A stretch of 64,000 bases of DNA from positions 159,288-223,287 of the forward strand of contig NVUJ01000001.1 in assembly GCA_002733135.1 (NCBI GenBank), in the 5' to 3' direction. Below are positions 1-3,627 of this stretch, one piece after another. The notes under the pieces were generated by a model that worked only from the letters and a program-made list of their open reading frames with translations, had not been told where the DNA came from and did not search any database. Position numbers and translations under genes: made by a program. The DNA is from Cycloclasticus sp. (GTDB taxonomy: Bacteria > Pseudomonadota > Gammaproteobacteria > Methylococcales > Cycloclasticaceae). Within the stretch, counting starts at the first letter, position 1, and every line of letters starts with the position of its first letter.

Positions 1-32
1 AATACGTGTATTTTCATATTAATTAGGGGGGG

Positions 33-54
33 CTTGACTACCTAACCTTTGTAA
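33..54 (+). promoter_or_regulatory. Candidate promoter/operator upstream of the dioxygenase genes
   Basis: TTGACT at 34-39 resembles a sigma70 -35 box, but no good -10 box sits at normal spacing. The motif CTTGA-CTACCTAAC-NN-TTGTAA covers this stretch and recurs in slightly altered form at 3663-3687, beyond the end of the three-gene cassette. TTAGG (23-27) and CCTAA (42-46) could pair as a short inverted repeat. A regulator site is possible, but nothing here identifies the regulator. Confidence 0.3.
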
Positions 55-94
55 TGTTTAAGTATACACGAGACCAATTTTAGAGAAGGGGCAA

Positions 95-1399
95 ATGACA
101 AAAAATATAAATGACTTAATGCAGGCGGGTCGCGTTCATCGTACAGTTTATACAGATGAGAAAATCTTTGCGATTGAACAACAAAAAGTGTTTGGTGAAA
201 CCTGGGTGTACCTTGCACACGCGAGTGAAATAAAAGAACCCAATAGTTTTGTTGCCAGAAAAATGGGTTTGCGTTCGGTTATTGTTACACGGGATAAAGA
301 ACAAAAAATTCATGTGTTGCTTAACCGATGTACGCACAGAGGCGCCACCGTTTGTCGTGAAAAAAAGGGTGATAAAACGCCTTTTTTCACGTGTCCTTAT
401 CACGGTTGGACATTTCGAAACACAGGTGAATGCGCGGCTATCCCACATGATGATGCCTATGGTGCAGATTTTGACAAAAGCAGCTTTAACTTAAAACGAA
501 TTCCTTATGTGTCGGAGTATAGGGGGTTTATATTTGCCACGTTAAATCCTGTAAAGGGCAAAAAAGGAATCAAAGACCACCTAAAGTCAGCAGCAGACCG
601 AATTGATGAATGGATAGATCATAACGGTGGTGAGCATAAAGCCATTCGAATCAGTGGGGCGCAGCAATTTACCGTGCATGCAAATTGGAAATGTTTGTAC
701 GACAACGCAGGCGATGGCTATCACCCTGAATTTTCGCATCAGTCATTATTGCAAATGACGCAACAACGATACGGTTCGGGAATGGACTTGGATTATTTCA
801 GTGGTGGTATTGATTCAACACCGATGTATTCACAGGATTTAGGAAATGGCCATACGTTCTTAGATCAGCGCCCTTGTATGTACGAAGCATCTGCGTTTGA
901 CAGGCAAAGACCACAGCCCGGTCGTGAAGCAATAGTTGAGCAACTGACTGCTGAGGTGGGTGAAGATAAGGCCCGAGACTATTTTGAAATGGCGACGGGC
1001 GCGGGGATGAACTTAAATATCTTTCCCAACCTATTATTTATTGGCAACCAACTACAGGTTATTACGCCCCTATCCGTCGGCTTATCCGATATGACGTGGT
1101 ATTCAACGACCATAGACAATGTACCTGCCGCCGTTAATACGCTTCGATTACGCACACAAGAGGACTTTACCGCCTTTGGTGAGCCGGACGATACGGCAAA
1201 TTTTGAAGCCTGTTTTAAAGGTATGCAAGAACGTGAAATTGATTGGATAGATATCAGTCGGCATTTAGAGACAGGTGTTGATACAACAGACGAAAATGGC
1301 ATTGTAACGTCGGTTATTTCATCCGATATTCATATGCGCGCTTACTACGCAGAATGGAAAAAACTGATGCAGTCTGATGATCAGTCACTTTTAGGGTAA
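95..1399 (+). CDS. Rieske aromatic ring-hydroxylating dioxygenase, alpha (large) subunit
   Basis: This is the catalytic subunit of a non-heme iron oxygenase that inserts O2 into an aromatic ring. The N-terminal Rieske [2Fe-2S] domain shows CxH (Cys79, His81) and CxxH (Cys100, His103). The mononuclear iron motif D-x2-H-x4-H is at Asp207, His210 and His215, in order DGYHPEFSH. At 434 residues it has the usual length. The beta subunit follows 4 bases after the stop, so the two are co-transcribed. Family features (CTHRGATVCR) look like the benzoate/anthranilate/aniline-type oxygenases, but the substrate cannot be read from sequence. The glutamine-synthetase-like gene downstream favours an aniline-type or other amine substrate (inference). 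No ferredoxin or reductase gene is present in the window. The start has a good GAAGGGG ribosome site. Confidence 0.93.
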   Translation: MTKNINDLMQAGRVHRTVYTDEKIFAIEQQKVFGETWVYLAHASEIKEPNSFVARKMGLRSVIVTRDKEQKIHVLLNRCTHRGATVCREKKGDKTPFFTCPYHGWTFRNTGECAAIPHDDAYGADFDKSSFNLKRIPYVSEYRGFIFATLNPVKGKKGIKDHLKSAADRIDEWIDHNGGEHKAIRISGAQQFTVHANWKCLYDNAGDGYHPEFSHQSLLQMTQQRYGSGMDLDYFSGGIDSTPMYSQDLGNGHTFLDQRPCMYEASAFDRQRPQPGREAIVEQLTAEVGEDKARDYFEMATGAGMNLNIFPNLLFIGNQLQVITPLSVGLSDMTWYSTTIDNVPAAVNTLRLRTQEDFTAFGEPDDTANFEACFKGMQEREIDWIDISRHLETGVDTTDENGIVTSVISSDIHMRAYYAEWKKLMQSDDQSLLG

Positions 1400-1403
1400 A
1401 GAT

Positions 1404-2000
1404 ATGATAGATAAAAATAAAACAATTCCAAATTCTAATTACTTAGATAACGCTTACTATCAGCAGTTGATGGTATTAAATGAAGACTGGCAGTTAAACG
1501 GAGCTGTGCCCGTTGCCGAACAACCAACAGCAACAGACAAACAAGCGTGTGAAGCACTTGTTTTTGCTGAAGTGCGGTTAGCAGACGACCTGCGCTTGGA
1601 ACAATGGCTAGATTGCTATAGCGATAAGTGTGTGTATTGGATACCTGCTAGCTATCCTACGGCTGATCCGCGGCAAGAAATCACCTTGGAATTTCACGAT
1701 AAACGACGTTTACAAGATCGTGTTGCGCGTATACGCACGGGTGTTGCCTATTCCATGCACCCAGTTATTCGTACGCGACACGTGTTAGGAAATATTGAGT
1801 ATTGGCGCGGTGACGATAACGAAGTACGTGCTAGAGTCAGCTTTATAATGGATGCATTATTTAACGAAAAGCACCGAACGCTATCGGGATGGGTAGGTTA
1901 TTCATTGGTGAATGAAAATGGTGAATGGAAAATTGCAGTTAAACAAATTAATTTAATTGATGCGGACTGTTTACAGGAAAATAATACGTTTTTCTTATAA
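1404..2000 (+). CDS. Aromatic ring-hydroxylating dioxygenase, beta (small) subunit
   Basis: This is the structural subunit of an alpha3beta3-type dioxygenase, with the SnoaL-like cone fold. It has 198 residues, slightly longer than the usual 160-190 because of a roughly 35-residue N-terminal extension before the conserved part. Typical beta-subunit features follow: a YxDKCVYWIPASY segment near residues 70-85, a RRxxDRVxRIRTG segment near 100-115, and a C-terminal half with RTRHVLGNI and GWVGYSLV. It begins 4 bases after the alpha subunit and clearly forms one complex with it. The beta subunit carries no metal ligands. There is no sign of frameshift. Confidence 0.92.
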   Translation: MIDKNKTIPNSNYLDNAYYQQLMVLNEDWQLNGAVPVAEQPTATDKQACEALVFAEVRLADDLRLEQWLDCYSDKCVYWIPASYPTADPRQEITLEFHDKRRLQDRVARIRTGVAYSMHPVIRTRHVLGNIEYWRGDDNEVRARVSFIMDALFNEKHRTLSGWVGYSLVNENGEWKIAVKQINLIDADCLQENNTFFL

Positions 2001-2114
2001 AGCTTAGCTAAGTGGTTGGTGTTTTTCCGCACACTTCTGCGAAAATTATGCACTTTGGGTATAAAGCATTTTGGATAAATGTCTCTTAGAAAAAAATGAA
2101 TAAAGGGGAGCAAC

Positions 2115-3587
2115 ATGAGTAAGCAAAACATAGTGTCATCTATCGGCTTAGATGGCTTTATTGGCAAACATAAACTGTGGAATAAAGAACAAAAAAAAGC
2201 GGCTGAAAATCTTATTCAGCGTTTAAAAACCGAGGATATTACGTACGTTCGGGTAACGTATTGTGACCAACACGGTTTAACCCGCGGAAAAATGCTTCCA
2301 CTTAAGCAGTTTATATCGGTGTTAGAAAATGGCTTGGCCGCCACCCATGCACTATTTGCAATGGATTCGGCAAACAATATTTTTTTACCGGTGTTCAGTG
2401 ACGATGGTGGTTTTGGTAATGCCGAAATGGGCGGTGCAGGCGATATGATTATGGTGCCAGACCCTGCAACTTTTCGCGTGCTTCCATGGGCCGATAAAAC
2501 GGGCTGGGTATTATCTGACTTATATTTAAAGTCGGGTGCGGCGATGCCGTTCTCACCCAGAGCGATATTGGCTTCTCAGTTGCAGAAACTGCATGCAAAA
2601 GGTTATGAATTATTAATCGGGCTAGAAGTTGAGTTCCATGTATTTAAAATTGATGATCCGCAGCTAACTATGCAGGCATCAACCCAACCTCCCGAGCCAC
2701 CTAGCGTATCGCCTTTGGCGCATGCATATCAATATCAAGGTGAACAAAATTTAGATGAAGTGGCGCCGATACTGGAACTTTTTCATCAAAGTTTGCAAGC
2801 GCTAGACCTGCCCATTCGTTCGCTGGAAGATGAGTGGGGCCCCGCGCAGTGCGAAATAACAATGGAACCGTTACCTGCTATGCAAGCAGCAGATGCGATG
2901 GTGTTAATGCGCTCAACGTTGAAGCAAGTCGCACGTCGGCAAGGCTATTTAGTCACCTTTATGTGTAAGCCCGCGTTACCCAATGTGTATTCATCAGGCT
3001 GGCATTTGCATCAATCTTTGGTTGATATAAAAACGGGCGAGAATATTTTCGCCACAAGTAAAAAAGACGAATTTGTGTCACTCATTGGGCAGCAATATAT
3101 CGCAGGGTTAATAGAGCATGCGCGGGCGTGTACGGCCTTTTCAAACCCAACGATTAATGGTTACAAACGCATGAATTCCAACGCGCTAGCGCCCAATCGT
3201 GCGGTCTGGTCTGTGGATAATAAAGCAGCGTGTTTAAGGCTAGCCAATGCGGGCGACCCATCGGTACATATTGAGAATCGCTCTGGCGAGCCAGCGGCAA
3301 ACCCGTATTTATTTTTTGCCTCTCAGTTGGCGGCTGGTATGGATGGGATTAGTAAAAAGCGTGACCCAGGCCCGCCATTAAATGACCCGTATGCGCAAAC
3401 AGACAAGACTCCGTTACCAGCGAGCTTGATGGAAGCCATAACCGCACTAGACGAATCAAAATTACTCAGAGATGCGATTGGTGACACGTATATTGGCTAT
3501 TATCTCGGCCTTAAACGGCATGAAATTCACCGATTCTTATCGACCGTGACGGACTGGGAGCATAAAGAGTATTTTGAACGTTTTTAG
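2115..3587 (+). CDS. Glutamine synthetase-like ligase (possible gamma-glutamyl-amide synthetase)
   Basis: A 490-residue type III/GlnA-like protein. It shows an N-terminal beta-grasp part (DQHGLTRGKMLP), the WGPAQCEITMEPLP segment that matches the PGQxE region of glutamine synthetases, the GWHLHQSL stretch near residue 295 matching the ATP-site GSGxHxHxS motif, and the ENRSGEPAANPYL segment matching the glutamate-site ExRxxxxxANPYL. It is therefore probably an active ATP-dependent glutamate-amine ligase rather than housekeeping GlnA. Known relatives glutamylate aniline (TdnQ/AtdA1) or isopropylamine (IpuC). It lies 114 bases after a dioxygenase beta subunit in the same direction and has its own GGGGAG ribosome site. 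That context suggests gamma-glutamylation of an aromatic or alkyl amine before ring oxidation (inference). Polyamine or ethanolamine ligation remains possible. Confidence 0.85.
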   Translation: MSKQNIVSSIGLDGFIGKHKLWNKEQKKAAENLIQRLKTEDITYVRVTYCDQHGLTRGKMLPLKQFISVLENGLAATHALFAMDSANNIFLPVFSDDGGFGNAEMGGAGDMIMVPDPATFRVLPWADKTGWVLSDLYLKSGAAMPFSPRAILASQLQKLHAKGYELLIGLEVEFHVFKIDDPQLTMQASTQPPEPPSVSPLAHAYQYQGEQNLDEVAPILELFHQSLQALDLPIRSLEDEWGPAQCEITMEPLPAMQAADAMVLMRSTLKQVARRQGYLVTFMCKPALPNVYSSGWHLHQSLVDIKTGENIFATSKKDEFVSLIGQQYIAGLIEHARACTAFSNPTINGYKRMNSNALAPNRAVWSVDNKAACLRLANAGDPSVHIENRSGEPAANPYLFFASQLAAGMDGISKKRDPGPPLNDPYAQTDKTPLPASLMEAITALDESKLLRDAIGDTYIGYYLGLKRHEIHRFLSTVTDWEHKEYFERF

Positions 3588-3599
3588 TCTATTTAGAGG

Positions 3600-3627
3600 C
3601 AAAAAAAAGCCTACTAGAAAGTAGGCT
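3600..3627 (-). terminator. Rho-independent terminator for the MFS gene
   Basis: Read on the minus strand, the hairpin AGCCTACTTTCTAGTAGGCT is followed directly by eight T residues. It lies about 160 bases beyond the MFS stop codon. On the plus strand the hairpin is preceded by the A run and followed by GAAG, so it is a weaker stop for the ligase gene. Confidence 0.75.

Follow-up and report, generated by a model that had tools for sequence, protein, structure and literature searches.

Four adjacent genes at the left edge of the analysed Cycloclasticus sp. DNA form, as we believe with good confidence, an aromatic-amine oxidation cassette of the AtdA/Tdn/Npa kind. Judged from their sequences, they would very probably tag an aniline-like aromatic amine with glutamate and then oxidise it to a catechol. 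No description of this cassette was found in the literature searched.

Organisation of the cassette

The window, i.e. the whole stretch of 64,000 nucleotides that was analysed, corresponds to C2:159288-223287 (contig NVUJ01000001.1) of genome G000, a 1.76-Mb assembly in 24 contigs with a completeness of 83%. The ORF list placed a Rieske dioxygenase alpha subunit, a beta subunit and a glutamine synthetase (GS)-like ligase on the + strand, and their Pfam matches were all over cut-off (Rieske, 72.9 bits, and Ring_hydroxyl_A, 40.7 bits, for alpha; Ring_hydroxyl_B for beta; Gln-synt_C, 293.6 bits, for the ligase). The original prediction of a complete alpha with CxH/CxxH and D-x2-H-x4-H motifs, a complete beta and a co-directional 490-residue GS-like protein with intact ATP- and glutamate-site segments was thus confirmed. 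It had also reported the glutamine amidotransferase-like partner as missing, which turned out to be an edge effect: the start codon of this gene is base 17 of the window, on the minus strand and 77 bases from the alpha start, and the gene runs off the left edge. The sequence upstream of position 1, whose inspection had been proposed, contained this amidotransferase and, over 20 kb, no reductase. The amidotransferase gene, with 13 undetermined bases in the assembly, has an open frame and retains the catalytic C, H and E. On the right, the ligase is followed by a convergent MFS gene. Promoter and terminator scans of the cassette gave totals no higher than in shuffles, and no LysR-type regulator was located beside it.

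Table 1. Features of the cassette and positions in the window
Feature	Position	Strand	Evidence
Divergent class I glutamine amidotransferase-like gene, 234 aa	start 1..17; whole gene L005:18600-19304, ~690 bases past left edge	-	PF00117, 66.5 bits; catalytic GICLG and QFHPE kept; divergent in 6/6 cassettes
Divergent intergenic region amidotransferase/alpha, 77 bases	18..94	.	promoter match not above chance
Rieske dioxygenase alpha, aniline/naphthylamine dioxygenase clade (AtdA3/TdnA1/NpaA3-like), 434 aa	95..1399	+	ORF, Pfam, motifs, tree
Ring-hydroxylating dioxygenase beta, 198 aa	1404..2000	+	PF00866, 84.9 bits; 42-44% to beta of chloroaniline/naphthylamine clusters
GS-like ligase, predicted gamma-glutamyl-arylamide synthetase (AtdA1/TdnQ/NpaA1-like), 490 aa	2115..3587	+	Pfam, PDB match, tree, residues, fold
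Terminator-like hairpin and T run, between ligase and convergent MFS gene	3608..3627	-	scan total equal to shuffled expectation

Phylogenetic placement of the oxygenase and the ligase

The alpha ligands C79xH81, C100xxH103, D207, H210 and H215 were all invariant in a 10-sequence alignment. Chloroaniline and naphthylamine clusters were the best plasmid matches of this subunit (48-53%), the next group being at about 36%. In a tree built from public genomes and plasmids, a GS-like gene, scored by tblastn, adjoined all 27 alphas of the clade that contains the window alpha (support 98/96) and, within the flanks examined, not one of the 34 that fall elsewhere. The window alpha adjoins the npa/dca group of naphthylamine and chloroaniline oxygenases (100/95). 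The placement in a non-amine oxygenase clade, named in the original prediction as one of the outcomes that would speak against it, did not occur. An assignment to the benzoate/anthranilate type (BenA/AntA-like) was rejected, as the tree separates the two and the BenA model gave 215 bits for a cut-off of 781.

In its tree, the ligase belongs to an amine-ligase clade of 28 members (100/100) that is separate from PuuA, GlnA and GlnT, although the ligase shares the GS fold and the metal-site residues with these three; the other anticipated contrary outcome, a clustering with PuuA, was likewise not observed. A PuuA-like identity was rejected on this placement and on the gamma-glutamylputrescine model, which scored 260 bits for a cut-off of 650. 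The best match of the ligase among PDB sequences was NpaA1 (8wwu), which acts on 1-naphthylamine, with 416 bits, the next one having 210. The structure model (pLDDT 84.5) superposed on NpaA1 with a Foldseek TM of 0.92; the true GS proteins within the 50 matches listed reached 0.74-0.79. Metal residues (E171, E173, E240, E247, H297 and E387) and phosphate/glutamate residues (R352, R375 and R389) are present, and T77 and L358 replace the ammonium-site residues D50 and E327 of E. coli GlnA, both of which are absent from NpaA1 too. A separate GlnA is encoded in the genome.

A PuuA-type polyamine ligase standing by chance beside a benzoate/anthranilate-type oxygenase, with no common pathway, would account for the fact that the two model scores just given are the top NCBIfam scores of these proteins. 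They are nevertheless far below their cut-offs, both trees contradict this explanation and the genes stay linked in at least three genomic settings; we regard it as extremely improbable.

Inside its clade the ligase branches deeply, its nearest relative being on an uncultured Acetobacteraceae contig, and a grouping with the npa/dca ligases was rejected (p-AU 4.6e-5), the branch falling outside that subgroup. This deep position is one of the points that count against the aromatic-amine cassette. We do not claim a mosaic cassette with different histories for alpha and ligase, as the alpha data allow a matching deep position (p-AU 0.11). The disagreement of the trees is genuine on the ligase side and not compelling on the alpha side, and a single deep lineage is therefore the simpler reading.

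The amine pocket of the ligase

Positions were compared in NpaA1 numbering, which was checked against the residues in PMC11335346. The acidic amine site of NpaA1, E232/E234, is kept in the ligase as E238 and E240, and W235 and F86 of the tunnel as W241 and F94. Two tunnel residues differ, F75 being replaced by M83 and M81 by I89, which also counts against the main reading, and the hydrophobic loop reads ATHALFAMD instead of VAIGPFFFD in NpaA1. V201 of NpaA1 corresponds to Y207, and AtdA1 has a tyrosine there too; the V201Y exchange made NpaA1 more active on aniline as well as on 1-naphthylamine (PMC11335346). The M81 position is a tryptophan in AtdA1, going with a loss of naphthylamine activity (PMC11335346), and the window ligase has isoleucine and not this tryptophan. 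The pocket thus fits an aromatic amine and may admit bicyclic amines, and the substrate would be an aromatic amine, possibly a polycyclic one. The original prediction that the cassette oxidises aniline or another amine is supported as regards the amine pathway by the placement of both alpha and ligase, aniline itself staying a candidate substrate.

The same chemistry could also serve a naturally occurring amine other than aniline, such as a biogenic arylamine or arylalkylamine, with aniline types only as side substrates. The loop unlike that of NpaA1 and the F75 to M exchange would fit, as would a lineage that is old and chromosomal rather than a recent xenobiotic plasmid, and the use of ligases of this family with an unrelated Rieske oxygenase of the LigXa type. 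We consider this rather unlikely, since alpha groups with the naphthylamine/chloroaniline oxygenases and the ligase retains F94, W241 and both acidic residues.

Conservation across the genus

Orthologues of alpha (87-91%) were detected in 6 of the 18 genomes of the genus and those of the ligase (81-91%) in the same six, the other 12 members searched having neither; many Rieske oxygenases are encoded per genome in this genus. No match to the ligase turned up among viral contigs. Amidotransferase, alpha, beta and ligase are adjacent in all six carriers, the amidotransferase being always divergent and the ligase of G006 being cut by a contig end. The gene order is the same in the five genomes other than G000. 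We found the cassette in at least three chromosomal settings: adjoining glpK/glutaredoxin/cysK genes in G000 and G007 (beside glutaredoxin/cysK in G006), surrounded by aldehyde dehydrogenase, DapA-family, ketopantoate-reductase-like and flavin-reductase-like genes in G010 and G012, and surrounded by putative acyl-CoA dehydrogenase genes, as read from the sequence, in G002. That the four genes relocate together speaks for a common function.

The cassette genes are under purifying selection, with dN/dS values relative to G007 of 0.043 for alpha, 0.040 for the ligase and 0.14 for the amidotransferase, many of the comparisons other than that with G007 being saturated at synonymous sites. The values of about 0.04 for alpha and ligase, together with the same-order orthologues in five other genomes, indicate that the cassette is not a chance arrangement.

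The amidotransferase

A class I amidotransferase-like gene, as in the AtdA/Tdn/Npa systems, is present in 6 of 6 cassettes. By NCBIfam, the one that starts in the window belongs to the PRK07053 subgroup, whereas the naphthylamine/chloroaniline clusters have the PRK09065-like type, a further point against the main reading. In the tree it stands apart from the AtdA2/TdnT type, a one-clade topology not being rejected (p-AU 0.34-0.50), and it may have been recruited independently. Related amidotransferases occur elsewhere in the cassette-less genomes G003 and G014 (L187:4296-5021 and L188:6272-6967, 47% and 38%), so the subgroup exists on its own too.

Electron supply and ring cleavage

No FNR-type or Reductase_C-type reductase was found in the 64-kb window, in the 20 kb upstream or in the examined flanks of the orthologous cassettes, and the original statement that the reductase (TdnB) is missing was right for the neighbourhood. 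The cassette is therefore without a dedicated cluster reductase (AtdA5/TdnB), which, like the lack of a neighbouring LysR-type regulator, weighs against the main reading; other clade members are also without a recognisable one, and elsewhere in the clade at least two types of electron-transfer partner occur (the FNR type, or a ferredoxin with a Reductase_C type), some members having none nearby. As no reductase is nearby, electrons are probably supplied in trans. The sole FNR-type reductase of G000 is BenC-like (C2:101977-103050, 57 kb away), with 228 bits, below the cut-off of 430. It adjoins an FA_desaturase-family membrane protein (L056:4977-7177, i.e. C2:101977-104177), a layout like that of an XylMA/AlkB-type monooxygenase. 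In Cycloclasticus pugetii, ferredoxin and reductase are described as often being common to several oxygenases (PMC11099662).

The lack of a local reductase in all six genus cassettes, with one FNR-type reductase only in the 83% complete G000, would also be expected of a non-working remnant, in which the oxygenase stands idle and ligase and amidotransferase do no more than conjugate amines and set them free again, for tolerance and not for catabolism. The dN/dS of alpha places the oxygenase under selection and the electron-transfer partner varies across the family, so that we hold such a remnant to be quite improbable and retain the four-gene amine oxidation cassette.

No intradiol dioxygenase was found in the genus, and contig C4 carries a BphC-like extradiol dioxygenase with HpaH/HpaI-type downstream genes; on these grounds, extradiol (meta) cleavage is the most likely fate of the diol. 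The C4 region (L007, C4:80001-100000) contains two HcaE-like alphas with betas, the BphC-like gene, an HsaD-like hydrolase, HpaH, HpaI and aldehyde dehydrogenases, one of which (L007:742-1958) appears split into ORFs of 317 and 84 aa; a 483-aa version is intact beside the G010 cassette.

Proposed pathway

Aniline-type systems combine an ATP-dependent gamma-glutamylation, dioxygenation of the conjugate and an amidotransferase that controls the toxic conjugate (PMC4539516, PMC11335346). By homology, structure and residues, the ligase would join, with ATP, the gamma-carboxyl of glutamate to the aromatic amine. Alpha-beta would then dioxygenate the gamma-glutamyl-arylamide with release of a catechol-type diol. 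Excess gamma-glutamyl-arylamide would be hydrolysed by the divergent amidotransferase-like enzyme, a role that AtdA2 is described to have. Electrons would come from a reductase encoded elsewhere and common to other oxygenases, the best candidate being the BenC-like one, and the diol would most likely enter the meta route. A more far-reaching reading, which we hold to be less likely than not, is a marine, chromosomal and anciently separate line of amine dioxygenases that would act on polycyclic or petroleum-derived aromatic amines, with a shared reductase and an independently recruited amidotransferase as gamma-glutamyl-arylamide hydrolase.

Comparison with known systems

GS-like ligases of this kind serve at least two unrelated Rieske oxygenases, as indicated by a second pairing in which a LigXa_C-type (PF19301) single-subunit Rieske oxygenase lies beside a GS-like ligase (L011:4607-7431, L190, L192, L193, L194). 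These oxygenases, from Methylobacterium nodulans and four gammaproteobacterial loci, are 58-62% identical and their ligases are 40-49% identical to that of the window; no paper on this pairing was found in the literature searched. A Nostoc plasmid and Bacillus genomes likewise carry aniline-type alpha, beta and ligase genes (L013, L067, L068), with no AtdA2-like amidotransferase or reductase recognised nearby, the Bacillus ones having a Peptidase_C26-like gene.

Soil or waste isolates are the source of most characterised systems cited here, which are often plasmid-borne. If the cassette is an ancient, chromosomally encoded form of the system in hydrocarbon-degrading marine bacteria, aromatic amines would be a regular natural marine substrate, for example from crude oil, and its separate-branch ligase could be used for testing how the amine pocket sets the substrate range.

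The cassette has the alpha clade, the GS-like ligase family and the beta gene after alpha in common with the AtdA/Tdn/Npa systems. The npaA1A2A3A4A5 cluster for 1-naphthylamine of Pseudomonas sp. JS3066 (PMC11335346) has the same ligase, class I amidotransferase and Rieske alpha and beta, with 48% identity for alpha and 42% for the ligase, whose fold and most pocket residues are alike except at the V201, M81 and F75 positions. Its genes lie on one strand in the order ligase-amidotransferase-alpha-beta-reductase, whereas the cassette has alpha-beta-ligase with a divergent amidotransferase and no reductase. With the tdnQTA1A2B/atdA kind, as on pLME1 (L010), identities are 53% for alpha, 45% for the ligase and 42% for beta, and the enzyme set is the same bar the reductase; the pLME1 cluster, unlike the cassette, is plasmid-borne, with a LysR regulator, its own reductase and an amidotransferase of another subgroup. 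Actinobacterial clusters (Corynebacterium occultum pCOCCU, Gordonia, Cryobacterium and others) show a similar order, alpha-beta-(amidotransferase)-ligase, and a PRK07053-type amidotransferase in the one scanned, but they are three-component systems with their own ferredoxin and Reductase_C-type FAD reductase, and their alpha and ligase are in another branch. The Acetobacteraceae contig (L061) is the closest relative outside the genus in both trees and has the identical order alpha-beta-ligase, yet it shares only 48% (alpha) and 51% (ligase) identity and shows no recognised amidotransferase or reductase over its 7.7 kb. The cassette differs from the known systems by the ligase in last position, by the divergent amidotransferase of another class I subgroup and by the deep branching of the ligase. 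The pathway itself would very probably be a known one, here in a new lineage, with its genes in a different order and without a reductase nearby, and not a new kind of system.
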